This document shows positions 5,560 through 43,052 of a stretch of 64,000 nucleotides of DNA, piece after piece. Source of the stretch: Desulfosarcina ovata subsp. ovata (lineage in GTDB: Bacteria; Desulfobacterota; Desulfobacteria; Desulfobacterales; Desulfosarcinaceae); NCBI RefSeq assembly GCF_009689005.1, contig NZ_AP021879.1:3720001-3784000 (forward strand). Direction: 5' to 3'. Positions within the stretch are counted from its first letter, which is position 1. Each line of letters opens with the position of its first letter. The notes beneath the pieces are model-generated. The model searched no databases. It was not told the origin of the DNA and saw only the letters and a program-made list of their open reading frames with translations. The position numbers and the translations under genes were made by a program.

Positions 5560-6651
5560 CTATTCTGATTCCGTGCGATGCTCGATCCTGGCAAACCAGG
5601 CCTTGAGGACCGCATTGGCCAGGGTGGCCAAGGGAATGGCGAAAAAGAGTCCCCACAGCCCCCACAGGCCACCGAACAGGAGCACCGCCACCACGATGGC
5701 GACGGGATGGAGATTGACCACCCCGGAAAGCAGCAGGGGAGCCAAAAGGTTGCCATCCAATACCTGAATCACCGCATAGGCGATCATGGCGGAAATGAAC
5801 TCACCGCCCCACCCCCATTGGATAAAGGCGATCAGGGCCATGACAAACCCCATCACCGTAACACCGATGTAGGGAATAATCACCGAAAGGCCCACGAACA
5901 GAGAAACCAGAAGTGAAAACTGCAGACCCAGCCCCCGGAACACCGCGTAGCTGACCACCCAAATAATCAGCAGTTCCCATCCTTTGCCCCGGATGTAGTT
6001 GGTGATCTGAACATTGGCCTCCTGCCAGACCGACTCGGTCAGGTCCATATTATCCGGCAGAAAACGTCTCCCCCAGGCCAGGATGGCGGCTTTGTCCTTG
6101 AGCATGAAAAAGACCATAAAGGGTACCAGCACCAGATAGACCACCAAATGCATAAGGCCGACAACCGAGGCCAGGGATAGCGTCAGTACCCGTTTTCCCA
6201 GCGTGGAGATACTGGCGTTGAGAAAATCGATCACCTGGCTGACCTGGCTTTCCGAAATCAGTTCCGGGTAGTTGGAGGGCAACTGCAGCAGACGGGACTG
6301 GATCGTGGCCAGCATTCCCGGAAGCTGCTGCACCAGTTGGCTGACCTGCCTGACCGCCAGTGGAAGCAGCCACAGCATAATCACGATCATGCCGGCCATG
6401 AAGACAATAAAGACGATCAGGACCGAGGCCAGGCGCGGCAGATGAGAGCGCTGTAGCAGGGCAACCATGCCGTCAAGCAAGTAGGCGATGATGATGCTGA
6501 TAAATACCGGCGTCAGCAGGCTGCCTAAAAAATAGACCAGCCCCGCTCCGACCAGAAGCATAAACCCCAGAATCACCCGCTGGGGATCGGAAAAATGGCG
6601 CTCTCTCCAGGATCTGAACAATTCAAGCATCGGATTCGGTCCGGTATCCAT
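5560..6651 (-). CDS. AI-2E family transporter (PerM/YdiK type)
   Basis: 363-residue integral membrane protein with about eight hydrophobic segments. A membrane-proximal soluble stretch follows the third segment (about residues 75-145), and the family-typical P-Y-I-G and G-x-x-L-x-P-L-L-L-S-G motifs occur in the C-terminal half. Members have been linked to autoinducer-2 export or to Na+/H+ exchange; the substrate cannot be told here. The ATG at 6651 is used, although a GTG three bases upstream is possible. It starts 29 bp after the PagL-like gene on the same strand, at the end of the S1-trxB-pagL-like run. Confidence 0.8.
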   Translation of the reverse strand: MDTGPNPMLELFRSWRERHFSDPQRVILGFMLLVGAGLVYFLGSLLTPVFISIIIAYLLDGMVALLQRSHLPRLASVLIVFIVFMAGMIVIMLWLLPLAVRQVSQLVQQLPGMLATIQSRLLQLPSNYPELISESQVSQVIDFLNASISTLGKRVLTLSLASVVGLMHLVVYLVLVPFMVFFMLKDKAAILAWGRRFLPDNMDLTESVWQEANVQITNYIRGKGWELLIIWVVSYAVFRGLGLQFSLLVSLFVGLSVIIPYIGVTVMGFVMALIAFIQWGWGGEFISAMIAYAVIQVLDGNLLAPLLLSGVVNLHPVAIVVAVLLFGGLWGLWGLFFAIPLATLANAVLKAWFARIEHRTESE

Positions 6652-11760: not shown

Positions 11761-11827
11761 GCGGACACGGAAAAATTGACAAGCGCCCTGCTTTCGGGGT
11801 AAGAAAATCGTAACTGACAGGTGCGGG

Positions 11828-12010
11828 CGCCGGCGCTTCGAACGCCCGTTAAAAGGAAAGATGGTGAGAGCCCATCGCATACCAGCCGTTGCTGTAATCG
11901 GGAACGACCGCCGCAAAAACGCCACTGCCGACCGGGTGTCGACGGGAAGGCGCGGCCAGTAGGGAAACGCTCGACGCCCGTAAGCCAGAAAGCCTGCCTG
12001 TGCACTGCCC
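11828..12010 (+). promoter_or_regulatory. Cobalamin (B12) riboswitch
   Basis: The conserved cobalamin aptamer parts occur in order: AAGGAAAG then GGTGAGAGCCC (the GGTGA-A-TCC-like P3-P4 segment), the B12-box core GCCACTGCC at 11921, GGGAAGGCGCGGCCAGTAGG, then AAGCCAGAAAGCCTGCC (the P2/P7 AGCCAG-GA-ACCTGCC element) ending near 12000. About 190 nt follow before the TrpD-like start, including a run of seven T at 12115-12121 after a G+C-rich short stem that may be the expression platform. B12 binding would be expected to lower expression of the three downstream genes. Confidence 0.88.
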
Positions 12011-12201
12011 GGCGGCATCATCGATGCCTGCCGGAAACGGATACCGCTGGAAGCTGTCCGTATCGTTTTCGTCTGGTCGTTCAGGCGAAAGGATACTGGC
12101 ATCGGCTGCCGCGGTTTTTTTATTGTGCAGCGCCGTATATCGCAATATCCTGCCTCCTGTCCGGCCCATCCGATATTTCCATATCACGGAGTTAACCGAC
12201 C

Positions 12202-13314
12202 ATGAGTACGGACAAAACCTTCGGCGCATTGATCACCCGCCTCATCGACAAGACGGACCTCACCCGCGACGAGGCCCGCGAAGCCTTCACCGTTATCCTG
12301 AATGACAACACTACGGCCATGCAGCAGGGGGCATTTCTGGCGGCCCTGCGCGCCAAGGGCGAGACCGAAGCGGAAGTCGCCGGCGCCTGGGAGGCCATTT
12401 TCGACCTGGACACGGTCAAGGTGACCCCCGATACGGGCATGCCCGTCGTCGAGAACAGCGGCACCGGTATGGACAGCTACAAGACCTTCAATATCAGCAC
12501 CGCCGCCGCCATCGTGGCCGCGGCAGCCGGCGTGCCCATGGCCCGCCACGGCGCCCGGGCAATCACCTCCGTCTGCGGCACGGTGGATATGGCCGAAGCG
12601 CTGGGCGTGGATGTGGCCTGCGATGCCGACCTGGTGGCCCGCAGCATCAAGGATGCCGGCATCGGCCTGTTCAATGGCATGAGCCCGACCATTCACCCCA
12701 TGGCCCTGGGCCGCATTCTCTCCCAGATCCATTTCGGCTCGACCCTGAACATCGCCGCCTCCCTGGCCAACCCGGCCATGCCCCGGTTTGGTATTCGCGG
12801 TGTCTACGCCCGGGAAATGATCGACCCGGTGGTCCGGGTCATGAAAGCCATCGGCTACCAGCAGGCCCTGGTGTTCCACGGGGCGGTAGACGGCACCAAC
12901 AAGGGCATGGACGAGGCGTCGGTCTGCGGCACCACCTGGTGTGCGCAGCTGGGCGAGGATGGCACCGTCGACACGTTTCGCCTGCAGCCGTCCGAACTGG
13001 GCCTGGCCGATCACAACCCGGCCGACCTGGCACCGGAGAAGGATCTGGCGCGGGAATCCAGGCGCTTCGTGGCCCTGATCCGGGGGCAGGAAAACGGCAC
13101 CAGCACCCGCCGACAGGCCCTGGAACTCAACACGGCCCTGATTCTGAAGGTCGCCGGCAAGGTGGACACCATCCCCACCGGCATGGCCCTGGCCGGCGCC
13201 ACCATCGACAGCGGCAACGCATACGCCACCCTGGAAAACTGGGTCACCACCCAGAACCGGCAACCGGAGGAGGGACTGGCCAGGCTGCGTCGGCTGCAAA
13301 ACGCCATCAATTAG
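12202..13314 (+). CDS. TrpD-like nucleoside phosphorylase-fold phosphoribosyltransferase
   Basis: 370 residues with the anthranilate phosphoribosyltransferase layout: an N-terminal helical domain, then G-T-G-M-D (GTGGD in TrpD), F-N-I-S-T-A-A-A, R-H-G-A-R-A-I-T-S (KHGNRxxSS in TrpD) and S-L-A-N-P. Several TrpD substrate-pocket positions differ, including the G-x-R-T-x-F-N segment, which here reads F-G-S-T-L-N, so anthranilate is probably not the acceptor. It is the first gene behind the cobalamin riboswitch, with no trp genes nearby. I infer a role linked to corrinoid metabolism, for example attachment of ribose phosphate to a lower-ligand base. This is a hypothesis, not a recognised function. 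Confidence 0.75.
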   Translation: MSTDKTFGALITRLIDKTDLTRDEAREAFTVILNDNTTAMQQGAFLAALRAKGETEAEVAGAWEAIFDLDTVKVTPDTGMPVVENSGTGMDSYKTFNISTAAAIVAAAAGVPMARHGARAITSVCGTVDMAEALGVDVACDADLVARSIKDAGIGLFNGMSPTIHPMALGRILSQIHFGSTLNIAASLANPAMPRFGIRGVYAREMIDPVVRVMKAIGYQQALVFHGAVDGTNKGMDEASVCGTTWCAQLGEDGTVDTFRLQPSELGLADHNPADLAPEKDLARESRRFVALIRGQENGTSTRRQALELNTALILKVAGKVDTIPTGMALAGATIDSGNAYATLENWVTTQNRQPEEGLARLRRLQNAIN

Positions 13315-30427: not shown

Positions 30428-30483
30428 ACCTTCCAATATGCCGCTCATAACTTAACGAAATCGTATTGGAATCTGCTAATACC

Positions 30484-30864
30484 ATGGACGTCCGCCGGCT
30501 CAACCGTTTTGCGGCTTGCTATCGCTGCTTTCGCACAAAAAGGTCCTGCCTGGGAAAAATCATTTTGGCCGGCAGCCTTTCCGCCATTCTCTGCGTGCAT
30601 GGCCTGTCCGCCGATGCCGCCCAAGACAAACGCGTCGAGCGGGACACCGATAATGACGGTAAAATCGACCAGGTCGCTCTGCTGGACCCGCGCGGCAATC
30701 CCGTGCGCCTGGAGATCGACAGCAACGCGGACGGGCGTTTCGATAAAATCCAGCACTACCGCGACGGCAAACTGACCGCCATCGAAAGCGACCGGGACCA
30801 CAACGGGTCGATGGACACCCGCGACACCTTCGAAGATGGCGAAGATCAGCTCAAATGCCCATGA
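30484..30864 (+). CDS. Secreted EF-hand-like calcium-binding-repeat protein
   Basis: 126 residues. A signal-peptide-like segment (about 20-45) precedes three Asp-rich loops of the D-x-D-x-D-G type (D-T-D-N-D-G-K-I-D, D-S-N-A-D-G-R-F-D, D-R-D-H-N-G-S-M-D), each followed by a short beta turn. Such loops bind calcium in thrombospondin-3 and dockerin-like repeats. The ribosome site is weak. Its last codons overlap the truncated ExbD frame at 30855, and from memory related operons place ExbB genes between these two. The abrupt junction suggests a deletion. Confidence 0.55.
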   Translation: MDVRRLNRFAACYRCFRTKRSCLGKIILAGSLSAILCVHGLSADAAQDKRVERDTDNDGKIDQVALLDPRGNPVRLEIDSNADGRFDKIQHYRDGKLTAIESDRDHNGSMDTRDTFEDGEDQLKCP

Positions 30865-31031
30865 CGTCGCTGATCGATATCGTCTTCATGCTGCTGATTT
30901 ATTTTCTGCTGACCACTAATTTCATGGTCGATGAAGGCATTAAAATCAAAAACCAGGCGGTCAAAGTCATGGACATCGCCAAGGCCGCCGGTGCCGGCAG
31001 GCTCTGCCTGGCCACGGAAAAGGAGTTGTAG
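30855..31031 (+). pseudogene. Truncated ExbD-like fragment
   Basis: 58 residues. P-M-T-S-L-I-D-I-V-F-M-L-L-I-Y-F followed by T-T-N-F and V-D-E-G-I-K matches the transmembrane segment and first periplasmic residues of ExbD, including the essential membrane Asp. Normal ExbD is about 135 residues; here the periplasmic domain ends after about 30 residues of unrelated-looking sequence. No ExbB gene is present upstream. The fragment overlaps the preceding gene and abuts tonB by 3 bp. It is either a decayed gene or an unusually short membrane peptide. Confidence 0.55.
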
Positions 31032-31034
31032 GCC

Positions 31035-31754
31035 ATGGAAGCCCGTCTGCACCCATCGGCCATGGATCGCCCATCTTCCCCCAACTGGCTGCTCAGGACG
31101 CTGATCATCCTCTCGGTGGCGATCCACGGGGTGCTGTTCATGCACCTGTCGGGCATCTACCACACTCGGGCACTGACTTACATCGAAATGTCCCTGCAGA
31201 ATATCGCCCGGCCGGCCGCAAGGGATATCCCCCGGCCGCGTCCCCGGCCCAAGGTACCCGAACCCCAGGATCAAGTGAAGACGCTCAAAGCCGTTGCCCG
31301 TCCCGTACCCCGTTTCAGGCCCCTGGCCATGGCGCCGGTGGAGAGCAACCTGCCCGACAGCCTGATGGAGGGCATCAGCGCCCCGGATGTTCCGCAAACA
31401 CCGGGTGTGGAGAGCGCCGCCTGGGTCCCCGGCCCCCAGACCGATTTGGCCGCCGGCGACTACATGACCGCCGACAGCTACCTGGACATGGTGAGGCTCA
31501 AAATCGAAAGCCGCAAGCGCTACCCCGAAGCCGCCAAAACGAGAAGCATCGAGGGCCGCGTGGCGATTCATTTTATTCTGGCCACCGACGGAAGTGTACG
31601 CGACATCACCGTCACCAAAGGGGCCAGAAGCAGTGCCTTGAACATGGCTGCCGTTAACGCCGTTCAGCGGGCCGCACCATTTCCCCGGCCACCCGCCAAC
31701 CTGTTCAAGAACGATCTGTCCCTGGAACTGACCATCGTTTTCGAGCTGACCTGA
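31035..31754 (+). CDS. TonB-family energy transducer
   Basis: 239 residues. One N-terminal membrane anchor (about 18-40) carries an in-membrane His (I-H-G-V-L-F). A Pro/Arg-rich periplasmic linker (P-R-P-R-P-R-P-K-V-P) follows. The C-terminal TonB fold (about 150-239) has Y-P-E-A-A and G-R-V-A-I-H-F-x-L-x-x-D-G-S-V. It transmits inner-membrane proton-motive energy to outer-membrane receptors. GGAG precedes the ATG. The receptor gene follows after 230 bp with its own promoter. Working ExbB/ExbD partners are not in the window. Confidence 0.88.
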   Translation: MEARLHPSAMDRPSSPNWLLRTLIILSVAIHGVLFMHLSGIYHTRALTYIEMSLQNIARPAARDIPRPRPRPKVPEPQDQVKTLKAVARPVPRFRPLAMAPVESNLPDSLMEGISAPDVPQTPGVESAAWVPGPQTDLAAGDYMTADSYLDMVRLKIESRKRYPEAAKTRSIEGRVAIHFILATDGSVRDITVTKGARSSALNMAAVNAVQRAAPFPRPPANLFKNDLSLELTIVFELT

Positions 31755-31772
31755 ATACGTCAATTTTGTCTT

Positions 31773-31818
31773 AATGTCATTATGTCTTTCTTGACATTGT
31801 AACTCTTTTTTATATAGA
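31773..31818 (+). promoter_or_regulatory. Putative promoter and operator of the TonB-dependent receptor gene
   Basis: TTGACA at 31791-31796, a 16-bp spacer and TATAGA at 31813-31818, followed by AC. A perfect inverted repeat AATGTCA / TGACATT (31773-31779 and 31792-31798) overlaps the -35, as expected for a repressor site. No recognisable Fur box or riboswitch is seen in the roughly 160-nt leader. Confidence 0.5.
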
Positions 31819-31985
31819 ACTCTTTTTCCCCAAGAGACTTTCGAACTATTCAAACATAACTCCGTTTATTGCGGCGATCCCTTTTTAAGTACTTGCGGAA
31901 CCGAACTGCTCAGAATGGAAAATCGATCAAGGGCTCATATGGAACGGATAAAAAAGTTAAAAAACTCAAGGAGGAGAAGGAGAGG

Positions 31986-34094
31986 ATGATGAACCGAAAG
32001 AAACAGTTCAGAGCGGGGTTAATTTTTTTAAGTTTATTATTGGTGGTGCTTTGTCCTCTATTTAGTTTATCTGCCATGGCGGATGAGAGCAAAGGATACC
32101 AGGAGTATTCGTTGGGAGAAATCGTTGTCAGTGGGAAAGGGTCATCGGTCCGCGATATCGCCATTAGCGACGAGATAACCGTCGAGGATTTCGAGGCTGT
32201 CAATGCGGACAGCGTGGCCGACGCCCTCACCTATGTACCGGGTGTGCGGGTCACTTATGGCCGTAAAATGCTTCCCGAGATCAACATTCACGGGTTCGAC
32301 AAACAGCGCATATTAACCCTGATCGACGGGGTTCCCTACTACGAAACCAAGTACGGAAGCCTGGACCTCAACCAGGTCGGCCTGGAGGGGGTCGCCCGCA
32401 TCGACGTGGTTAAAGGGGCCCCTTCCGTCCTTTACGGCCCCAACGCTCTGGGCGGAGTGGTCAATATCATCACTAAAAATGCGTCCAGTGAGAAACCGGT
32501 CTTGTCGGCCACGGCCGAGTACGGTGTGGACGGCATCGACGATGCTTACAGAGTGGGGCTGTCCCATGGCATGAAAAAAGGCAACATCAACTACTGGCTG
32601 AGTTATTCACGCAAGGAATGGGACTCCTGGGATCTATCCGACGATTTCGACTCTCGTGAAGGGACGATTATGGTACGGCAGGCAGACGGATCCCGCACAA
32701 GGACGCCTGCCGTTATCCAGGACGAGGGCGAACGGGTCAATTCGGATTATGAAACCGACAACTTTTGGGCCAAAATTGGTGTCGAGCCCTCGGAAGACAC
32801 GGAAATATACGTCAACTTCCATTACATCAAAACCGAAAAAGGCGATCCGCCCGACATAGACTTTGTGCAGGTACGGTACGATTATAACTATGCGCACTTT
32901 GACCGAATCAGCGCCTACGACGACTGGGGCGTCGACCTGAGTGCCGAGCATGCCTTTACGGACGCGTTCAGTTTGCAGGCAAAGCTTTACTACCATGACC
33001 ACAGCGATGAATACGAATCTTACACGGATGAAACTTATACCCAAGCCTGGGCTTTGAGCACATACAACGACTCCATCCTAGGGGGCATACTGCTAGGAGA
33101 CTACCAAATTACGGATTGGGACACCCTGCGATTTTCTTTGCATTACAAAGAAGACTTCCACGAACAACGCGACCTTGAGGAGATACCCTATGCCGAAAGC
33201 GAGGCCGCAACAGGCTCCGTCGGTTTCGAAAACGAGATGACACTCTTCGACGACAAATTGTCGATTATAGCCGGCATCAGCTATGACTGGTATGAGGTTA
33301 CCAAAGCCGAGGATAACCCGAACGACGACAACAACATCATCAAAGCGGATACCCCGGACACCATGGATGAATTTAATCCCATGATCGGCGCCACCTATCA
33401 GATTGTCGACAGCATCCAGTTGTTTGCTTCCGTTGCCAAGAAAACCCGTTTTCCTACTCTTGACCAAATCTATGATGGCGACACACCCAACTTGGGTCTG
33501 GAGGCGGAAACCGCCATCAACTATACGGCCGGTCTCTTTTGGACGTTCGAAGATAAGCTGAAGCTGCAGGTAGCCCCGTTTTTTCACGACATTTCGGATT
33601 ATATCACCGACGATGCACCTGACAATCCAGAAAGCCAGTCGAAAAATTACGCTGAAGTCCAGATGCGGGGGTGGGAGGTCAATATGGAAATCACACCTTA
33701 CAAAGATCTCCTTTTTAAACTCGGCTACATGACCAACGACGCCAGCAACAAAAGCCACGAGCGGGCCAGCGACGAGGTGGTCGGTGTTCCCGAATACACA
33801 GCAACGATCAGTGTGCAGTACACCCTGCCGACTATCGGCACCCAGCTGAACTTGACCATGCTCTACATGGGCGAGTCATACAGGGAGTTGCCGAGCCTTG
33901 AAGAACCTGACACCGAGGTTATAAAAAACGAGACTTACCAATTGTGCAACGCCAAAATCACCCAACCATTCATGTCAGATCGCCTGAAGGTATTTTTGGC
34001 GGTGGAAAACCTCTTCGACGAGGATTACGAAGCTGAGGAAGGTTTCCCCGCACCGGGCATGCGCACGTGGATAGGCGTGAAATTTGATCTGTAA
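31986..34094 (+). CDS. TonB-dependent outer-membrane receptor
   Basis: 702 residues. A signal peptide ends near S-A-M-A. A plug domain (about 45-165) has A-D-A-L-T-Y-V-P-G-V-R-V and V-V-K-G-A-P-S-V-L-Y-G-P-N-A-L-G-G-V-V-N-I-I-T. A 22-strand-type barrel follows, rich in alternating aromatic and acidic residues. A TonB-box-like E-I-V-V-S follows the signal peptide. The start lies behind AAGGAGGAGAAGGAGAGG, with a second in-frame ATG next to it. The coding sequence is more AT-rich than its neighbours. The ligand is unknown; gene context suggests a cofactor-like or haem-like substrate. Confidence 0.92.
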   Translation: MMNRKKQFRAGLIFLSLLLVVLCPLFSLSAMADESKGYQEYSLGEIVVSGKGSSVRDIAISDEITVEDFEAVNADSVADALTYVPGVRVTYGRKMLPEINIHGFDKQRILTLIDGVPYYETKYGSLDLNQVGLEGVARIDVVKGAPSVLYGPNALGGVVNIITKNASSEKPVLSATAEYGVDGIDDAYRVGLSHGMKKGNINYWLSYSRKEWDSWDLSDDFDSREGTIMVRQADGSRTRTPAVIQDEGERVNSDYETDNFWAKIGVEPSEDTEIYVNFHYIKTEKGDPPDIDFVQVRYDYNYAHFDRISAYDDWGVDLSAEHAFTDAFSLQAKLYYHDHSDEYESYTDETYTQAWALSTYNDSILGGILLGDYQITDWDTLRFSLHYKEDFHEQRDLEEIPYAESEAATGSVGFENEMTLFDDKLSIIAGISYDWYEVTKAEDNPNDDNNIIKADTPDTMDEFNPMIGATYQIVDSIQLFASVAKKTRFPTLDQIYDGDTPNLGLEAETAINYTAGLFWTFEDKLKLQVAPFFHDISDYITDDAPDNPESQSKNYAEVQMRGWEVNMEITPYKDLLFKLGYMTNDASNKSHERASDEVVGVPEYTATISVQYTLPTIGTQLNLTMLYMGESYRELPSLEEPDTEVIKNETYQLCNAKITQPFMSDRLKVFLAVENLFDEDYEAEEGFPAPGMRTWIGVKFDL

Positions 34095-34120
34095 TAAAGC
34101 GTTTTGAATTGACATGCAGC

Positions 34121-34156
34121 GGCGGTCCCCCACCACAAAAGGGGACCGCCTTTTCA
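34121..34156 (+). terminator. Rho-independent terminator after the receptor gene
   Basis: A 10-bp perfect stem, GGCGGTCCCC paired with GGGGACCGCC, around a 10-nt A-rich loop, followed by TTTTC. It separates the receptor transcript from the phosphatase-led operon, although the latter starts only 60 bp later. Confidence 0.8.
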
Positions 34157-34216
34157 TTGTTCTTCTACATACAAGTATCGTAGCCTTGAGGCCATCTCTT
34201 CGCGAAGGAATAAAAC

Positions 34217-35521
34217 ATGCGTTTCTACCCATTCAGATGTTGGCCCAAAATCGGTCTGCTCTGCCTCTGCCTAACGTTGACGATTGCCTGCGGCGGCGGC
34301 GAGAAAACATTTACACGATCGAAAAGCACATCCGGGCCGGTTCCGGAAAGCCCTCATTCTCTAACGTTTTGGGGACAAACGGCCACTCCCCAACGAATCA
34401 TCTTAAACCTGACCACCACACCCGCCACCAGCCAGGCGGTCACCTGGCGCACGGTGGTTCCGGTGGCTCATCCCCAGGCCCAGATCGCACCGGCCAGCGG
34501 CCTGTCCGACTTTGACAAAAATGCCCGGTCAGTGGCCGCCGACACCGAAACGGTCACCCTGGACGATGGGCGTATGCTGGCCCATCACGCGGTGGTGTTC
34601 GACGCCCTTGCGCCGGATACGGTGTATGCCTACCGGGTGGGGGCCACAGGGGCATGGAGCGAGTGGAACCAGTTCAAAACCGCCGACGATCACCCGGCAC
34701 CGTTTAAATTTGTCACCTTCGGGGATCCCCAGGAGGAGGTCCGGTCCAAGTGCTCAAGGGTTTTCCGGGCGGCGTATCAACACGCACCCGATGCCGATTT
34801 CTGGCATTTTGTCGGCGATCTCGTGGACAACGGGGACAGGGATGCGGAGTGGGCCGAATTGTTTGACGCCTTCGGGTGGATTCCCCGCATGACGCCGATG
34901 ATCTTCCTGCCGGGCAACCATGCCTATCCCAACCGCCGACGGGTCAAACCCGACGCGTTTCGGATTTTCGACCTGTGGCGACCCCACTTTACCCTGCCCG
35001 AAAACGGACCGGCCGGCCTGGAGGAGACCGTCTACTTTCTCGACTATCAGGGCGTCCGGATGGTAATGCTCAACGGCAACGAGAAACTGGCCGAACAGGC
35101 CCTGTGGCTGGACCGCATTCTGTCCCGCAACCCGCAGCCCTGGACCATCGCCGCCATTCACCAGCCGGTGTACAACACGGGCAAATGGCGCAACCGGTCC
35201 ACGCTTCAGGATCTTTTCGTGCCGATATTCGACAAATATGCGGTCGATCTGGTGCTCCAGGGCCACGACCACACTTACAGCCGCACATATAAACTGAAAA
35301 ACGGCACCCGGGTCGGCCCGGATGAGCCGGGGACGGTTTATGTGATCTCGGTCAGTGGGCCCAAATCCTATCCGGTCGGCCCGCAGCATGCGGCCCTGAT
35401 GGAGAAGTCAGGGACCGGACGGCAACTGTTTCAGGTCATCCGCGTCTCCCAACGGCATCTGGAATATGAGGCGCTCGATGCTGCGGGAACACGCTATGAC
35501 GCATTTGTGCTCAAAAAATAG
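34217..35521 (+). CDS. Purple-acid-phosphatase-like lipoprotein (metallophosphoesterase)
   Basis: 434 residues. The N-terminus has a lipoprotein signal with lipobox-like L-T-I-A-C-G-G-G. A fibronectin-like domain (about 50-155) precedes a calcineurin-type domain whose metal motifs read F-G-D-P, G-D-L-V-D-N-G, G-N-H, I-H-Q-P-V-Y and G-H-D-H-T-Y-S-R. That is the order and spacing of purple acid phosphatases. It should hydrolyse phosphate esters at the cell envelope. The next gene starts 44 bp downstream, so it probably leads the operon to 39257. The biological substrate is unknown. Confidence 0.85.
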   Translation: MRFYPFRCWPKIGLLCLCLTLTIACGGGEKTFTRSKSTSGPVPESPHSLTFWGQTATPQRIILNLTTTPATSQAVTWRTVVPVAHPQAQIAPASGLSDFDKNARSVAADTETVTLDDGRMLAHHAVVFDALAPDTVYAYRVGATGAWSEWNQFKTADDHPAPFKFVTFGDPQEEVRSKCSRVFRAAYQHAPDADFWHFVGDLVDNGDRDAEWAELFDAFGWIPRMTPMIFLPGNHAYPNRRRVKPDAFRIFDLWRPHFTLPENGPAGLEETVYFLDYQGVRMVMLNGNEKLAEQALWLDRILSRNPQPWTIAAIHQPVYNTGKWRNRSTLQDLFVPIFDKYAVDLVLQGHDHTYSRTYKLKNGTRVGPDEPGTVYVISVSGPKSYPVGPQHAALMEKSGTGRQLFQVIRVSQRHLEYEALDAAGTRYDAFVLKK

Positions 35522-35564
35522 TTGTGGTTGTGAAACGGCAAACCACATCTCAAAGGAGGTCGGC

Positions 35565-36542
35565 ATGCTCGGTTTTGGATTGTGCAGGGCAGCGGAGAGG
35601 CGGATAAGCATTTCCGGTTCGGTCAGGCATCCGTTGGAGGTCACCCAGGCAATGCTCGAAAAGCTGGCCGCCGCGGAAGTCCACCTCAATGAAATCTGTA
35701 CCGACGGCGAGTTCCGCGGCGTCTTTAAGCTTCTCGGAGTGCCCCTCAGGGATATCTTGTCACTATCCGGAATAGAAAAAAAGCATACCGATTTCGACTC
35801 ACCGGTGGATCTGGCCGTAAGGGTCACCAGCAGCAACGGCCAAAGCGTTGTGCTCTCCTGGGGAGAGCTGTATTACAAAAGCACCGCTGAAGTGATCGTG
35901 GCCATCTCTGCCCACCCCATCTTCCCCAATAAAAGCATCGATAAATTCAAGGACAAGGACGCCTATCACCACATGATGGATATCCTTAAACGGGAAATCC
36001 GGTTTCCGAAACTGGTGGTCCCCTCGGACAGGTACGCCGATCGATCCATCGAAGCCATCACGGCCATCGAGGTAGTTGACCGCTGCTCCGATGTCGGGGC
36101 CGATCCGTCGCCGGAGCCGTACAGCCCGCAGGTCACCGTCGGCGGGGAGGGCCGGCAACCGGTGACATTTGAGGATTTTTCCGAAGGGGAGTTCATCACG
36201 GCCACCGTACACGTGGTCGGCGACGGAAAAGGCTACCACGGTACCCACACTTACAGCGGCATACCACTTAAAACCGTCATTGAGCAGGCCCGCGTAAAAG
36301 CGGATGTCAATACGGTGTTTATCGTCTCCGCACCCGACGCGCACCGGGTCCTGGTCTCATGGGGAGAACTTTTTCTCAATCCTCACGGTGATCGGATTAT
36401 TCTGGCGCGCAAAGAGGACGGCAAGCCGATCACCCGAAACGGCAAATTCATCCTGATTCCGGCCGACGATCTGATGGCTGACCGGCAGGTCAAATCCGTC
36501 AAGTGCATTGAAGCCGTCTCCATGGAAAGTGGCAACCAATGA
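35565..36542 (+). CDS. Tandem sulfite-oxidase-fold-like protein, cytosolic form
   Basis: 325 residues made of two related domains (about 12-172 and 188-318). Each has the order beta strand, G-V-P-L-R-D-I-L (G-I-P-L-K-T-V-I in the second), a V-x-S-x-x-G segment, then V-L-S-W-G-E-L-Y/F. This resembles the oxidoreductase molybdopterin-binding (sulfite oxidase) fold. Domain 1 has a Cys in E-I-C-T-D-G at about the place of the Mo-ligating Cys; domain 2 has V-V-G-D instead, so pterin binding is doubtful. No signal peptide. AGGAGG precedes the ATG at 35565. The stop overlaps the next gene as ATGA. Confidence 0.6.
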   Translation: MLGFGLCRAAERRISISGSVRHPLEVTQAMLEKLAAAEVHLNEICTDGEFRGVFKLLGVPLRDILSLSGIEKKHTDFDSPVDLAVRVTSSNGQSVVLSWGELYYKSTAEVIVAISAHPIFPNKSIDKFKDKDAYHHMMDILKREIRFPKLVVPSDRYADRSIEAITAIEVVDRCSDVGADPSPEPYSPQVTVGGEGRQPVTFEDFSEGEFITATVHVVGDGKGYHGTHTYSGIPLKTVIEQARVKADVNTVFIVSAPDAHRVLVSWGELFLNPHGDRIILARKEDGKPITRNGKFILIPADDLMADRQVKSVKCIEAVSMESGNQ

Positions 36543-37615
36543 CAAAAAAGATCGTGCTTGCCGTTATCGCCGCTGCGGCAGTATTTTTTTACTACCGCCA
36601 GACCCATCGGGATTACTACGACTACCTGACCATGTCCGGGGCAACCCCCCTCGCCGTAGCCCGCCGGGTGCCCGCCGGCGTCCGTCTCGAGATTGACGGC
36701 CTGGTGAAAAAAACCTACCGCTTTTCCGGCGATGCGCTCAATGCCCTGGCCACCACCCGCATCCGCACCCGCGAAATCTCACCCTCGGGAAATTTCCTGG
36801 GGGCTTACATCCATGTGGGCATCCCGGCATTCAACATCCTTGAGGGAATTGCCCCGAAAAAACCGGACCACGCCGGTTTCGACCAGCCGCTGGACATCCT
36901 GGTGACATTCCATTCCGCATCGGGAAAACGCGCCTGTTTCAGTTTCAACGAACTGATCATGACCGGGGACGGCAAGCCCGTGACCCTGGCCTTCAGCCGC
37001 CAGCCGGTCGAACCCACCACGGACGCGGTCCGGGAGCAATATACGGGCAACGTCTATGCCGCCGACCTGGAGGGTCTGCGCCTGATCTGCCCCAGGGAGC
37101 CGGACACCGCCCGCTACCTGGAAAACGTGGTCCGCATCAGCTACACGACCATTCCGGTGGACGAGAAGGCGCTGCCGCCGCGCAGGAAAAAATTCTCCTG
37201 CCAGAGCGACAGCATTACCTGCATCGATGGGAATACGGCCACACCGGGCATTCTTACCCCGGTTGCCCGGACGTCCAACGATCACTGGATCCGGATCGGT
37301 CACGGTCACGGATATGACGAAATCGCCACGGTCGAGGGGTATCGGCTGCGCGATTTTCTGCGTACCAACTTTCCCGGCCTGACCGCCGAGGATTTCTTTC
37401 TCTTTGTCGCCTGTGACGGCTACCGGGCCCTGTTTTCGGGTCGCGAGATTTTCTCCACAGACGACGGTGCGGCCATGATCATCGCCGACCGCCTGAACGG
37501 AAAGCGCCCGGCCGAGGGGTATCTGCTGGCCCCGACTCGGGATTTTTTTTCCGACCGGGGCATGTGGGGCTTTTCCCAGGTGGTCTGGATTCACCACACA
37601 CAAATCGAGGAATAA
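36539..37615 (+). CDS. Membrane-anchored tandem sulfite-oxidase-fold-like protein
   Basis: 358 residues. An N-terminal membrane anchor (about 4-20) would place the rest in the periplasm. Two domains follow, with P-A-F-N-I-L near residue 95 and Y-R-L-R-D-F-L near 275 taking the place of G-V-P-L-R-D-I-L, and A-C-F-S-F-N-E-L and A-L-F-S-G-R-E-I in the place of V-L-S-W-G-E-L. The Mo-binding Cys position is not conserved, but several other Cys (F-S-C-Q-S, I-T-C-I-D) are present. The start overlaps the previous stop and the stop lies 2 bp before the CcsA-like gene, so the three are coupled. Function unknown. Confidence 0.6.
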   Translation: MTKKIVLAVIAAAAVFFYYRQTHRDYYDYLTMSGATPLAVARRVPAGVRLEIDGLVKKTYRFSGDALNALATTRIRTREISPSGNFLGAYIHVGIPAFNILEGIAPKKPDHAGFDQPLDILVTFHSASGKRACFSFNELIMTGDGKPVTLAFSRQPVEPTTDAVREQYTGNVYAADLEGLRLICPREPDTARYLENVVRISYTTIPVDEKALPPRRKKFSCQSDSITCIDGNTATPGILTPVARTSNDHWIRIGHGHGYDEIATVEGYRLRDFLRTNFPGLTAEDFFLFVACDGYRALFSGREIFSTDDGAAMIIADRLNGKRPAEGYLLAPTRDFFSDRGMWGFSQVVWIHHTQIEE

Positions 37616-37617
37616 TC

Positions 37618-38364
37618 ATGTTTACAACAGGTTCCCTGGCCTGCCTGGTCGCCGCCGCCGGCGGCTATGGCATGGCCTTGATTTTTTACCTGCGGCGCTG
37701 GCCGTATGCCGGCCGGGCCGCCCTGGCAATCGCCTTTGTTTTGCAGGGACTCTACCTTTTGGGCCGCGGATGGCTGGGCGGGGTATTTGTTCCCAACCCC
37801 ATCTTCGAAGGGCCGTTCCTGCTTCCCTGGAGCATCGCCCTGATCATCCTGATCCGAAGCCTTGTCGATCCGGACGCGCCCATAGCGGTGACACTGATGC
37901 TGGTGATAGGGCTCACCCTGTTCTCTATTTTTTATCCCCAGGGAATGATCCCCCCCTCCCCCAAAAAACTGAACATCTGGGCCCTGTTCTTCTTCACATC
38001 CGAATCCATGGCCCATGCCCTGTTTTACATCGGGGCGGGCGTCGCCACGATGTCGCTTTTCGGGAAAACGCCGGCGGATGGGCATCTGACCTGGATTGTT
38101 TGGGGATTCATCGCTTACACCATCGCCCAGGTAACCGGGGCCGTTTGGTGTTTCCTGGGCTGGGGGAATACCTTCAGCTGGGGGGCCAGGCACCTGGGTT
38201 CGGCTGCCATCTGGACCTTTTTTGCCGCCTGCCTGCACATGAAGTTCATTCCTGCCTGGAACCGGAGGAACGCACTGGTCACCATCGTCGGCGCCATGCT
38301 GGTCTTTTTTATCAGCTACGGAAACTATCTGCGTGAAATGCGCTTTCCACGGGTGGGGGGATGA
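37618..38364 (+). CDS. CcsA/ResC-like membrane protein with degenerate WWD motif
   Basis: 248 residues with about seven to eight membrane helices. A-H-A-L-F-Y-I-G near residue 140 and V-T-G-A-V-W then L-G-W-G-N-T-F-S-W-G-A-R-H then A-A-C-L-H-M-K follow the CcsA order (G-A-x-W-A, W-G-x-Y-W-x-W-D-P-K-E, Y-x-L-H). The D-P-K-E part of the haem-handling WWD loop is replaced. The candidate haem-ligand His residues remain. GAGGAA precedes the ATG. It abuts the ResB-like gene, reproducing the usual System II cytochrome c synthase pair. The altered WWD loop makes standard cytochrome c ligation doubtful. Confidence 0.7.
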   Translation: MFTTGSLACLVAAAGGYGMALIFYLRRWPYAGRAALAIAFVLQGLYLLGRGWLGGVFVPNPIFEGPFLLPWSIALIILIRSLVDPDAPIAVTLMLVIGLTLFSIFYPQGMIPPSPKKLNIWALFFFTSESMAHALFYIGAGVATMSLFGKTPADGHLTWIVWGFIAYTIAQVTGAVWCFLGWGNTFSWGARHLGSAAIWTFFAACLHMKFIPAWNRRNALVTIVGAMLVFFISYGNYLREMRFPRVGG

Positions 38365-38369
38365 CAATC

Positions 38370-39257
38370 ATGAAACGGATCTGGACAGTGCTGGGTGATA
38401 TCCGGGTTGCCGTCGTGCTCTTGATGATGGCCTCGGCAACGCTGTTTACGGGAACCTTTTACGCCGGCCGGAACTTCGTGCTCTTCTCCGAAATGAACCG
38501 CCAGACGGTTCAGGCCTGGCTGGCGATGAATCTGAGTGCCCGGCCGGAAACGGTCTGGTGGGTGCCGGTGCTGTTTGTCATCATGGGCGCCCTGGGCCTC
38601 AACACATTTATCTGCGCCACCAACCGGTTCGTTCAGATCGTGGCCAAACGCCAATCCCTGACAAGGGGAAGATTCGTCTATCTTCTGATTCCGTCGATGG
38701 TCCATTTTACGTTCATCATTATCATGCTTGGCCATCTAACGACCTTCGTCACCGGATCATGGCAGACCCTTTCCCTGGAAACGAATCAGCGCTTCACCGT
38801 CGACGGAAGCCCCACCCCTTACCGGGTGCAGGCCATCGAGGACCGCTATTTCCCTGCCCCCTCGGCAATGGGGGATCAGATATCCCAGACCGTCGTCACC
38901 CTGTCGGATGCCGACCAGGACGTCATCACCCTTCGGTATGGACGACCGGTGCGGGTCGACGGCCGGTTCTTCTTTCTGGACAAAATAAAGCAAAAGAGGC
39001 GCACCAAAACCCGGATTGCGCCTCCGGCAGACGACCCCACCTGCAACCAGGCGGAGGTATTCAACAACCCCGGGAAAACACCCAAAAGAAGCGACCAGCT
39101 GTTGCTGGTCGTATCCGATCCGGGACTGGCCGTGATCCTCTGCGGGCTGGCGCTGATCCTTTGCCTGATGACCGGCTATTTTCTGGTTCAGACCGCCAAC
39201 AATCGGCATGGACGCAAAGTCGGGAAGCGACCGGCCGCGATTGCCCAGCAGGGATAA
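38370..39257 (+). CDS. ResB-like membrane protein, short form
   Basis: 295 residues. Four membrane helices: about 10-30 (I-R-V-A-V-V-L-L-M-M-A-S-A), about 65-88, about 108-128 with S-M-V-H-F-T, and a last one about 245-268. A periplasmic region of roughly 115 residues lies between the third and fourth. This is the ResB/Ccs1 topology, but that family is usually 450-550 residues with a larger periplasmic domain. The ATG at 38370 is preferred since a G-run lies 9 nt before it; an ATG at 38361 overlaps the previous stop. Paired with the CcsA-like gene, it is the probable second subunit of a specialised haem-handling complex. Confidence 0.7.
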   Translation: MKRIWTVLGDIRVAVVLLMMASATLFTGTFYAGRNFVLFSEMNRQTVQAWLAMNLSARPETVWWVPVLFVIMGALGLNTFICATNRFVQIVAKRQSLTRGRFVYLLIPSMVHFTFIIIMLGHLTTFVTGSWQTLSLETNQRFTVDGSPTPYRVQAIEDRYFPAPSAMGDQISQTVVTLSDADQDVITLRYGRPVRVDGRFFFLDKIKQKRRTKTRIAPPADDPTCNQAEVFNNPGKTPKRSDQLLLVVSDPGLAVILCGLALILCLMTGYFLVQTANNRHGRKVGKRPAAIAQQG

Positions 39258-40899: not shown

Positions 40900-41976
40900 A
40901 TGGCGATTCTGGATAAGGTTTTTCAGGCAGCAGTCAACTTCAATGCCTCCGACATCCATGTCACTCCCGGCGAACCGTTCATCATTCGCCGATTGGGGCG
41001 GCTGGTCAAAATGAAAAGTGCGCCGTTGGCCGAAGCGCAGACGCGGCAGGTCGTTTTCGAGATTCTCACCCAGGAGCAGCGCAAACGGCTGATGGACGAG
41101 CAACAGCTGGATTTTGCCGTGGATCGCGACGCGCTCGGCCGCTTCCGGGGAAGTGCCATGCTGCACAATAACGGTCTCAGTGCGGTGTTTCGCAGCATCC
41201 CCAAAACCATCCCGACACTGGCGACCCTCGGCCTGCCGGCGATCGTGGAAAAAGTAATGGACAATCACCAGGGCCTGATCCTGGTGACCGGCGCCACCGG
41301 CCAGGGCAAGTCCACCACCCTGGCGTCGATGATCGATCACATCAATTCTCACCGGGCCCATCATATCCTGACCGTTGAAGATCCCATCGAATTTGTCCAT
41401 CCCATCAAAAAGGGGGTGGTCAATCAGCGGCAGCTGGGCATGGATACCCACTCTTACGGCAATGCCCTGAAAGCCGCCCTGCGGGAAGATCCGGATGTAA
41501 TCATGATTGGCGAACTGAGAGACCTGGAAACCATTTCCCTGGCCATATCGGCCGCCGAAACCGGCCATCTGGTGCTCGGCACCCTGGCTACCGCCAGCGC
41601 CCCGAAAACCGTGGACCGCATCATCGATGCCTACCCGGCCACGGAACAGAACCAGATCCGCACCATGCTCAGCGAGTCGCTGCGGGCGGTGATCACTCAA
41701 CGTCTGATTCCTGATAGGGACAAGAAAAAAATGGAAGTGGCCACCGAGGTGCTCATCGGCACCCTGCCCATGGCCAACCTGATCCGCGACGGCAAGACGT
41801 TTCAGATTCCCTCCATGATGCAGACCGCTAAAAACGTAGGCATGCAGATCATGGATGAATCGATCCTGGCCCTGCTCCAGGATGAAAAAATCGATGCCCA
41901 TGAGGCCCAGTCCCAGGCCAATGATCCAAAACGGTTTCAGGCGTTTGTGGACCGGGCCGAGCGAACGGCAAAATAA
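40900..41976 (+). CDS. PilT/PilU-type ATPase, divergent paralogue
   Basis: 358 residues of the type IV pilus retraction ATPase family. It has the N-terminal PAS-like domain with A-S-D-I-H-V, Walker A G-A-T-G-Q-G-K-S-T, the Asp box E-D-P-I-E-F, and Walker B-like D-P-D-V-I-M-I-G-E-L-R-D. Two departures from canonical PilT are clear: Q replaces S in the Walker A, and the His box reads G-T-L-A-T-A-S-A with the His lost. The family-typical A-I-R-N-L-I-R is replaced by M-A-N-L-I-R-D. It may be a PilU-like partner of the next gene product rather than an autonomous motor. Confidence 0.88.
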   Translation: MAILDKVFQAAVNFNASDIHVTPGEPFIIRRLGRLVKMKSAPLAEAQTRQVVFEILTQEQRKRLMDEQQLDFAVDRDALGRFRGSAMLHNNGLSAVFRSIPKTIPTLATLGLPAIVEKVMDNHQGLILVTGATGQGKSTTLASMIDHINSHRAHHILTVEDPIEFVHPIKKGVVNQRQLGMDTHSYGNALKAALREDPDVIMIGELRDLETISLAISAAETGHLVLGTLATASAPKTVDRIIDAYPATEQNQIRTMLSESLRAVITQRLIPDRDKKKMEVATEVLIGTLPMANLIRDGKTFQIPSMMQTAKNVGMQIMDESILALLQDEKIDAHEAQSQANDPKRFQAFVDRAERTAK

Positions 41977-41999
41977 GCGTACCGCCGGAAAGGCAGACA

Positions 42000-43052
42000 A
42001 TGGCAACGATCGACACCTATTTCAAAGAGATGAAGCAAGAAGGCGCCAGTGACCTGCATCTGGCCATCGGCTTTCCTCCCATGATCCGCCAGAGCGGCGA
42101 ACTGCGGCCGCTGGAACACCCGGTCATTACGGCCGAAGCCAACCGTAAGATTCTTTTCGAAATCCTCACCGACGAGCAGCAGGAAAGCGTGGAGGAGAAT
42201 CTGGACTTCGACATGGCCTATGAGCTGGCGGGGGTGGGGCGTTTCCGCTGCAACATTTTTCACCAGCAGCGGGGCTTCGGCGCGGTGTTCCGGATCATTC
42301 CGACCACGATCCTGACCCTGGAACAGCTGAACCTTCCCGAGGCGGTCCGGTCCGTCGCCGACTTCAAAAAGGGGTTGGTACTGGTCACCGGCCCCACGGG
42401 CAGCGGCAAATCGACCACCCTGGCGGCCATGATCAATTATATCAACGAAACCCGGGACGCCCATATCATCACCATCGAAGACCCCCTGGAGTTTGTACAC
42501 CCCAATAAGAAATGCATCTTCACCCAGCGTGAAATCGGCACCCACGCCAAGAGCTTCGCCGACGCGCTCAAGGTCGCCGGCCGGGAGGATCCGGACGTGA
42601 TCCTGGTGGGCGAAATGCGCGACCTGGAAACCATCTCCCTGGCCCTGACCTGTGCCGAGCTGGGGATTCTGGTTTTCGGCACCCTGCACACCAACAGCGC
42701 GGCCAAAACCATCGACCGCATCATCAACGCTTTTCCCTCGAACCAGCAGGCCCAGGCGCGCACCATGCTCTCCGAGTCCCTGAGGGCCGTCATCGCCCAG
42801 CAACTGCTCCGCACCGCGGACGGCAAGGGGCGCTGCGCGGCCAATGAAATCCTCATCGGTTCGTCGGCCCTGGCCAGCATGATCCGGGAAGGCAAGATCA
42901 CCCAGATCGAGTCACTGATTCAGACGGGAACCAAGTCGGGCATGCAGACCATGGATCAGCATCTGATGCAACTGGTGGAAGAAGAGAAGATCACCCGCGA
43001 GGCGGCCTACGAAAAGGCGATCAATAAAAAGCTGTTCGAGCCCCTGGAGTAA
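42000..43052 (+). CDS. PilT-type twitching motility ATPase
   Basis: 350 residues, 23 bp after the divergent paralogue. Motifs are canonical: A-S-D-L-H-L, Walker A G-P-T-G-S-G-K-S-T-T, Asp box I-E-D-P-L-E-F-V-H, Walker B D-P-D-V-I-L-V-G-E-M-R-D and His box G-T-L-H-T-N-S-A. The hexameric motor disassembles type IV pili to retract them. The C-terminal M-I-R-E-G-K region is close to the PilU branch, so PilT versus PilU identity is not settled. The pair is probably cotranscribed and forms the retraction machinery. Confidence 0.9.
   Translation: MATIDTYFKEMKQEGASDLHLAIGFPPMIRQSGELRPLEHPVITAEANRKILFEILTDEQQESVEENLDFDMAYELAGVGRFRCNIFHQQRGFGAVFRIIPTTILTLEQLNLPEAVRSVADFKKGLVLVTGPTGSGKSTTLAAMINYINETRDAHIITIEDPLEFVHPNKKCIFTQREIGTHAKSFADALKVAGREDPDVILVGEMRDLETISLALTCAELGILVFGTLHTNSAAKTIDRIINAFPSNQQAQARTMLSESLRAVIAQQLLRTADGKGRCAANEILIGSSALASMIREGKITQIESLIQTGTKSGMQTMDQHLMQLVEEEKITREAAYEKAINKKLFEPLE

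Follow-up and report, generated by a model that had tools for sequence, protein, structure and literature searches.

Iron, haem, vitamin B12, sugars and some other metals are known substrates of TonB-dependent transport. Molybdenum (Mo) and tungsten (W) are scarce in sulfidic settings, and sulfate reducers and syntrophs depend on both. The catechol siderophores of Azotobacter carry Mo or W, and we know of no sulfite-oxidase-fold (SUOX-fold) or CcsA/ResB parts in their uptake; TunR is a tungstate regulator of sulfate reducers, on which our literature search found no paper. The membrane haem partner of MsrP, MsrQ (YedZ), is unrelated to CcsA/ResB. PruR, a SUOX-fold protein without the Mo-ligating Cys, binds pterins in the periplasm, as stated in the available part of its description (PMC13259868), and the CcsA genes of an iron-regulated locus in Bacteroides belong to a different gene set, as far as the available part of that source goes (PMC10434189). 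Here we describe an island within a 64-kb stretch of the Desulfosarcina ovata subsp. ovata chromosome (hereafter the window; 3.72–3.78 Mb of the 7.63-Mb single-contig genome) that encodes TonB, a TonB-dependent receptor (TBDR), a purple-acid-phosphatase-like protein, two tandem-domain SUOX-fold proteins (SOR1 and SOR2), a CcsA-like membrane protein and a short ResB-like protein. The comparison with relatives indicates a real, recurrent system, and its best reading, in which we have about even confidence, is TonB-dependent acquisition of Mo or W, or of the molybdenum cofactor (Moco), with reductive release in the periplasm. Sulfate reducers and bacteria related to them account for most occurrences of the system, and the loci of relatives suggest the ligand that we assign to the receptor.

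The composition and gene order of the island, as well as the placement of its genes on the + strand with the last ones overlapping or abutting, had been put forward in an original prediction made from the sequence alone, and the open reading frames (ORFs), their coordinates and the family matches agree with it, apart from two corrections upstream of tonB that are given below. The phosphatase and SOR1 ORFs overlap by 56 bp, SOR1 and SOR2 by 4 bp, and CcsA and ResB by 4 bp, while SOR2 and CcsA abut. No CxxCH motif was found in any of the eight island proteins checked. The proposal of a repurposed and undescribed uptake system also stood, since the set recurs and literature searches gave no description of it. 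These searches returned no account of a TonB-dependent Mo/W or Moco system, and a 2024 review of TonB-dependent substrates contained no word beginning with "molybd" or "tungst"; the silence of the review is weak evidence, because cobalt, nickel and copper words are absent from it too. The system is apparently undescribed, and TonB-linked Mo/W uptake is absent from the literature that was found.

Individual loci and genomes are denoted below by L and G numbers, the G012 version of the locus being L011. A search of genome contigs with SOR yielded 59 loci, mainly from metagenome-assembled genomes (MAGs) of Desulfobacterota, with others labelled Nitrospirae, Acidobacteria, Spirochaetes, Aminicenantes and Bacteroidales. 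Across 395 genomes of the phylum, the SOR profile, which was built with SOR1 and SOR2 of the window so that both match by construction, matched 35, and the ResB-like profile matched 199; among the ResB-profile matches listed, many were N-terminal only and lay in frames of the greater length usual for canonical ResB, the full-length short forms ranking first. Short ResB and SOR tend to share genomes: of the 25 genomes that gave the best short-ResB matches, 12 had SOR, versus 22 of the 369 others (p = 5.6e-8), the 25 having been hand-picked with E values up to 2.3e-26, excluding G370 (partial cover, long frame) and keeping G076 and G062 despite partial cover. Within the same GTDB family, matches were obtained in 3/30 genomes for SOR2 and in 4/30 for ResB-like, the source genome included. 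Class A loci combine the CcsA/ResB pair with a substrate-binding protein (SBP), a FecCD permease and an ATPase, whereas class B loci, to which the island belongs, contain a SOR-fold protein, a TBDR, CcsA and ResB, and often TonB/ExbBD. A joint CcsA and ResB tree of 47 loci resolved the 15 class A pairs as one clade (support 0.96) and placed the window pair in class B with those of G012 and L123. The latter locus has TBDR, SOR1, SOR2, CcsA and ResB in the order of the window, without the phosphatase; an ORF next to its ResB-like gene (L123:13619–14449) is weakly related to methanogenesis marker protein 11/TiaS (TIGR03280, 41 bits, below the cut-off). Gene-neighbourhood comparison supported the recurrence of the set as a system and of the CcsA/ResB-like pair in TonB uptake loci.

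The evidence for the metal comes from the genes and RNA elements around SOR. The Mo/W markers, sought with a threshold of 1e-6 (1e-5 for later loci), comprised SBPs of the TupA, ModA or PBP type and regulators of the ModE-like or HTH_17-PF12727 kind. Of the 69 SOR-set loci, which include the contig L068/L124 twice and L015, a locus that lacks SOR, 20 carried a marker. The frequency was 1/40 in random 20-kb regions and 0/15 in class A loci. Ten single-contig genomes contributed four of the random control regions each, whereas the SOR loci mostly come from MAG contigs, whose lengths differ. When L049, L081 and L015, the sources of marker queries, were excluded, the count was 17/66 (p = 0.0013), and the later-fetched, non-duplicate loci gave 6/13 (p = 0.0005), with L205, L208, L209 and L210 set aside as repeats of earlier contigs. 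WtpA, which lay outside the original marker set, was present in L116, L139, L141 and L142 and in none of the controls. Scores above the NCBIfam cut-offs were obtained for WtpA in L139, L196, L198 and L201 and for ModA in L197 and L047, the L047 copy being just downstream of a CcsA-ResB pair. Six TupA-like proteins reached 133–369 of the 400 bits of the TupA equivalog cut-off, and two WtpB-like permeases 274 and 288 of 340 bits; since all of these fall below the cut-offs, they are relatives, unproven as TupA or WtpB.

Several loci join these genes directly to the set. A single + run in L120 comprises genes for receptor, SOR, permease, TonB, ExbB, ExbD, two TupA-like SBPs, a TupB-like protein and an ATPase, with a PF12727-type regulator gene divergent to it. 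Both L201 and L204 contain SOR, WtpA, receptor, lipoprotein, ExbB, ExbD and TonB genes; SOR2 ends the set in L201 and has no counterpart there in L204. SOR lies between WtpA and WtpB-like genes, behind a ModE-like gene, in the Bacteroidales locus L139, a layout common to L141 and L142, and in both L196 and L198 SOR2 relatives adjoin genes for WtpA and WtpB-like proteins. In a 596-aa protein (L203:8477–10267), a TupA-like domain and a tandem SUOX-fold SOR are joined in one chain. In L128, a Mo/W-cofactor riboswitch (RF01055, 59.9 bits) is situated ~65 bases before the receptor ORF of a receptor-SOR operon, and a second RF01055 precedes a TupA-like gene. Beyond ResB in L123, whose pair is closely related to that of the window, one ORF intervenes before a ModE-like gene at a distance of 0.8 kb. 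No riboswitch or regulator indicating Mo/W-dependent regulation was found in the window, the ModE-like and PF12727 regulators being those of relatives.

The CcsA-like protein matched PF01578 with 31.4 bits when read from the ATG (cut-off 29.9) and with 29.4 bits from the GTG start, and the same family was matched by 27/36 CcsA-like relatives; against the CcsB equivalog TIGR03144 it scored 40.5 bits, under the cut-off of 187.6. The ResB-like protein alone gave no Pfam match, and PF05140 was found in 8/38 aligned relatives. Its AlphaFold model (predicted local distance difference test, pLDDT, 89.5) matched CcsBA (7s9y, Z 11.7, root-mean-square deviation, rmsd, 3.2; second match, Z 10.9; 219 residues) and CcmF (Z 8.2). 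These Z values top the list yet are below ~13, the level at which helical matches stand alone, and the sequence matches to PF05140 and PF01578 agree with them. The CcsBA histidines are named TM-His1, TM-His2, P-His1 and P-His2 after the available part of PMC11322641. TM-His1 corresponds to H207 of the CcsA-like protein, kept in 51/51 sequences, and TM-His2 to H115 of the ResB-like protein, kept in 53/53, the ResB mapping being by a weak CcsBA alignment (E 0.042). Ten residues past H115, ResB position 125 is His in 42/53 sequences (H125 in the window) and Tyr in 10/53, versus Ala in CcsBA. In the CcsA-like protein of the window, Phe occupies the P-His1 position and no His follows H207, so that P-His1 and P-His2 are absent. 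The P-His1 column of the 51 sequences contains 43 F, 4 Y and 3 H, and 16 sequences have His one column further on; 11/51 have a His located over 15 residues past TM-His1; from these alignments, P-His1 or P-His2 may be kept in some relatives. The WWD Asp is kept in 7/51 CcsA-like proteins and is Gly in the window. The kept TM-His ligands make it likely that a membrane haem is retained, while the residues for handing haem to an apocytochrome are lost in the window pair. As judged from these residues, this pair is probably no cytochrome c synthase but an electron conduit with b-haem.

SOR1 and SOR2 share 26% identity in a search with SOR2, and SOR2 alone gave no Pfam match. The AlphaFold model of SOR1 (pLDDT 89.7) displayed two SUOX-fold domains; its best structural matches, SoxC (Z 16.1, rmsd 2.1, 133 residues), SorA (Z 15.8, rmsd 2.4, 136 residues) and PruR (7kom, Z 15.3, rmsd 2.0, 121 residues), are tied, and PruR with neopterin bound was matched with Z 14.2 (7rkb). 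A PDB search with the SOR profile gave weak matches only, and SOR2 alone gave none of use; the fold assignment therefore depends on the SOR1 model. Domain 1 shows no conserved Mo-ligating Cys: the YedY Cys aligns there with T79 of the window protein (weak HMMER alignment), and the six commonest residues of the family in this column are R, S, K, E, Q and T, none of them Cys. The N-terminus of SOR2 is hydrophobic and resembles a membrane anchor. Some relatives carry a tetrapyrrole-methylase domain fused to SOR (PF00590, 5.7e-34), and PF00590 domains, SOR-fused or free-standing, follow what appears from the sequence to be an export signal in L055:5395–7197, L058:8946–9896 and other SOR loci. S-adenosylmethionine is expected to be absent outside the cytoplasm; because the domain follows such a signal and the cosubstrate should be lacking there, we infer that it is a binding domain in these SOR relatives. 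An APC-type permease (PF13520) is encoded near 24 of 69 SOR ORFs (e.g., L120:8887–10206), these 69 being the ORFs left after removal of five known duplicates and the basis of the neighbour and CxxCH counts given here; such a permease may be the inner-membrane importer where ABC genes are absent.

Mo/W cargo, if this is the substrate, would probably be an organic complex, either a metallophore or a pterin cofactor, and the proposed route has the following steps: (i) the TBDR, powered by TonB and ExbBD, would take the ligand into the periplasm; (ii) SOR1 and SOR2, which lack the Mo-ligating Cys, would bind the metal complex or pterin there, as their predicted fold suggests; (iii) the CcsA/ResB-like pair would hold haem b through the aligned TM-His1 and TM-His2 and send electrons to the periplasm, whereby the complex would be reduced and the metal released or accepted, in a pairing like that of MsrP and MsrQ; (iv) the phosphatase may remove a phosphate from the ligand; and (v) an ABC transporter, of Tup-, Wtp-, Mod- or FecCD-type in relatives, would carry the product over the inner membrane. 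FecCD-type genes are present elsewhere in the chromosome of the window. The presence of one kind of pair in both Mo/W-type and cobalamin-regulated loci would be accounted for by a redox step, as both cargoes are redox-active metals in complexes, but not by movement of haem.

A number of observations weigh against Mo/W acquisition. The markers were picked after the loci had been seen, one of the 20 marker-positive loci has a weak 27-bit match (L111), 49 of the 69 SOR-set loci have no marker, though many contigs are short, and the 64-kb window has none. Rfam scans of 36 distinct SOR loci, a count that omits the repeats L085 and L210 and a second scan of L095, detected the Mo/W riboswitch RF01055 in one of them. 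SOR1 of the window lacks a clear signal peptide. Many SOR genes have no CcsA or ResB nearby: of the 27 with 4 kb on both sides, CcsA is near 15 and ResB near 14. Fusion of a tetrapyrrole-methylase domain to SOR, seen in 37 of the 69 SOR ORFs, points to tetrapyrroles. Upstream of the set in L065 are CbiB, CobD, CobS and CobT genes, on the same strand with one opposite ORF between, and L067, with the same gene sizes as L065, is apparently also beside cobalamin genes.

The fusions and the L065 neighbours speak for acquisition of corrinoids or cobalt, with machinery as in the sister class and the methylase-fused SOR binding corrinoids. Also in its favour are the 15-locus sister clade itself, in which a cobalamin riboswitch was found in the fetched stretch of 9/15 loci and CobN by phmmer in 9/15, and BtuB (1nqf, 5.2e-16, plug region only), the sole PDB sequence matching the window receptor at E ≤ 1e-15. 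The window has a cobalamin riboswitch as well (11802–12015, 78 bits), 18 kb from the island and with a trpD-like ORF on the same strand at 12202. The source genome carries a class A, cobalamin-riboswitch locus of its own, L014 (6.383–6.402 Mb), with a paralogous CcsA/ResB pair and genes for DUF3450 (PF11932), a TtpC-like protein, ExbB, ExbD, TonB, a TPR protein, SBP, FecCD, ATPase, CobN (TIGR02257, 971 bits) and TBDR, its Pfam matches being PF11932, PF01032 and PF02514. However, none of the 36 distinct SOR loci scanned has a cobalamin riboswitch, versus the 9/15 of class A (p = 1.6e-6), CobN is absent from all 69 SOR-set loci, and the SOR loci show Mo/W genes and a Mo/W riboswitch instead, which makes corrinoid acquisition unlikely. 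Tetrapyrrole uptake for the SOR class, an idea that arose from the methylase fusion, was lowered to a rival by these riboswitch and transporter results. A variant closer to Mo/W acquisition, which we consider rather unlikely, is that an intact Mo or W pterin cofactor (Moco/Wco) is salvaged from outside the cell through the receptor. The Cys-less SUOX-fold proteins would then be periplasmic cofactor carriers, the haem pair would maintain the reduced state of either the pterin dithiolene or the metal until entry, and the phosphatase would trim a phosphate or nucleotide tail, perhaps together with the deaminase-fold protein (PF00383, with a hydrophobic N-terminal stretch) of the G012 relative. 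We know of no route of Moco uptake, and none was found by literature search.

Haem might itself be imported by the receptor and moved by the CcsA/ResB pair, as these are haem-handling families with the TM-haem ligands kept, one CxxCH is present in 47 of the 69 SOR relatives, and the best NCBIfam subfamily of the receptor, which has both plug (PF07715) and β-barrel (PF00593) domains, is that of haem receptors (TIGR01785). The score of 171.6 bits is far under the cut-off of 316.85, and the subfamily name carries little weight, because the L128 receptor, with the Mo/W riboswitch upstream, scores best with siderophore receptors and second with haem receptors. The window pair is also without P-His1, P-His2 and the WWD Asp, the SOR CxxCH does not track the pair (25/22 vs 11/11, p = 1.0), and the relatives have links with Mo/W transport and regulation. 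Haem uptake is therefore decidedly unlikely; of the original proposal to import, move or reduce a haem-like or metal cofactor, reduction of a metal cofactor survives as an option, and haem as the cargo is not supported. Iron-siderophore uptake, in which the haem pair would give reductive release, draws on the same siderophore-receptor-like scores and on FecCD-type ABC genes in L011, L061, L128 and others; the recurrent SBPs and regulators found are of Mo/W types, Fur sites and iron markers not having been sought, and we regard this reading as very unlikely. A dedicated System II synthase for CxxCH-bearing SOR proteins would account for the CcsA/ResB homology and for the 47/69 SOR proteins with the motif, yet it is highly improbable: SOR1 and SOR2 of the window have no CxxCH, association of the motif with the pair is nil (p = 1.0 for the 69 ORFs; p = 0.19 for the 27 with long flanks), the periplasmic haem residues are lost in the window pair and the WWD Asp is kept in few relatives. 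CxxCH-SOR as a partner of the pair was rejected for this lack of association. ORFs with at least three CxxCH motifs occurred in 1/89 class B stretches (a set that includes the window, repeated contigs and a few stretches without SOR) and 0/15 class A stretches versus 4/40 random regions, the single case being a 9-CxxCH ORF in L207, on the opposite strand and adjoining the CcsA-like gene. With this scarcity and the lost haem-presenting residues of the window pair, an ordinary System II locus was rejected, in line with the original prediction.

The features of the island are listed in Table 1. The TBDR frame is open from TTG 31869 (ORF 31869–34094), and the ATG was taken as its start; the phosphatase has a lipoprotein-like N-terminus, LTIACGGG, the lipobox having been assigned by eye from the sequence.

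Table 1. Features of the island, in window coordinates.
Feature	Position	Strand	Basis
Truncated copy of EF-hand/VCBS-like lipoprotein gene (VCBS label is our own naming)	30466–30864	+	tblastn of 616-aa G012 protein: 68% over 73 aa
exbD remnant, internal deletion	30777–31028	+	tblastn, two pieces, 62% and 86% identity
TonB	31035–31754	+	PF03544 7.6e-15, TIGR01352 60.5 bits
TBDR, plug and barrel	31986–34094	+	PF00593 7.9e-38, PF07715 4.8e-24
Purple-acid-phosphatase-like metallophosphoesterase	34217–35521	+	PF16656 5.6e-19, PF00149 2.4e-17
SOR1, two tandem sulfite-oxidase-fold (SUOX/PruR-like) domains	35466–36542	+	PF00174 6.2e-9
SOR2, same kind as SOR1, N-terminal membrane anchor	36539–37615	+	finds SOR1 at 1.7e-14
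CcsA-like membrane protein	37618–38364 (ATG; alternative GTG 37564)	+	PF01578
Short ResB/CcsB-like protein	38361–39257	+	fold match CcsBA; PF05140 in relatives

Upstream of tonB, the truncated lipoprotein gene is a cut-down version of the lipoprotein-like gene that heads an exbB-exbD-tonB block in G012, the segment for residues 71–131 of the G012 protein is deleted from the exbD remnant, and no exbB match was found in the window. An intact lipoprotein-exbB-exbD-tonB block is present at 3.11 Mb of the same chromosome (L185), with a longer lipoprotein paralogue (L185:5582–7339), so that TonB is encoded in the island and ExbB, ExbD and a second TonB elsewhere. This block is followed by a NikA/OppA-like SBP gene and then an Opp/Nik-type permease gene, between which lies a 436-aa ORF that looks transposase-like. 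A relative of the G012 SBP (71%) is encoded at 2.75 Mb, adjoining a FecCD gene. Parts that sit in one locus in G012 thus have their counterparts at three sites here: 3.11 Mb, 2.75 Mb and the island. Between its ResB-like and deaminase-like genes, L011 has a group II intron match (RF00029) and a seemingly reverse-transcriptase-like ORF (L011:4127–5569 and 5582–5654). Beyond the island in the window are an apparently efp-like ORF on the opposite strand and two neighbouring ATPase genes, putatively PilT/PilU-like (40900–43052).

If the proposed function is correct, it would explain how sulfate reducers and syntrophs scavenge Mo and W, would show that parts of a cytochrome c synthase can turn into a membrane redox device for uptake, and would assign a role to SUOX-fold proteins whose sole match is the molybdopterin oxidoreductase model. 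The island shares with CcsBA of System II the families, the fold region and the fully kept TM-His1 and TM-His2; it differs in the short ResB, in the periplasmic residues missing from the window pair, in the His or Tyr found at ResB position 125 in 52/53 sequences, and in its setting of uptake loci with few multihaem genes. The class A CobN/FecCD TonB loci contain a sister clade of the same pair and are represented in this genome, but they have cobalamin riboswitches and CobN, and SOR is not among their annotated neighbours. SOR1 shares its modelled fold with the SUOX-family molybdoenzymes without their Mo-ligating Cys. Among these, MsrP (YedY; 1xdy, E 2.7e-7 against SOR1) is likewise a periplasmic SUOX-fold protein paired with a membrane haem protein, whereas it binds Moco through that Cys and serves methionine repair. 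PruR resembles SOR1 in both the fold and the absent Cys; according to the available part of its description it is a single domain (~170 aa) with a DcpA signalling partner, unlike the tandem SOR proteins in uptake loci. The Azotobacter catechol siderophores are alike in that organic Mo/W complexes are the form taken up. Finally, TupABC, WtpABC and ModABC are inner-membrane oxyanion importers and recurrent neighbours here, to the point of SOR lying between wtpA and wtpB-like genes or being fused to a TupA-like domain, and to such importers the system described here adds a receptor, TonB/ExbBD, SUOX-fold proteins and a haem pair.

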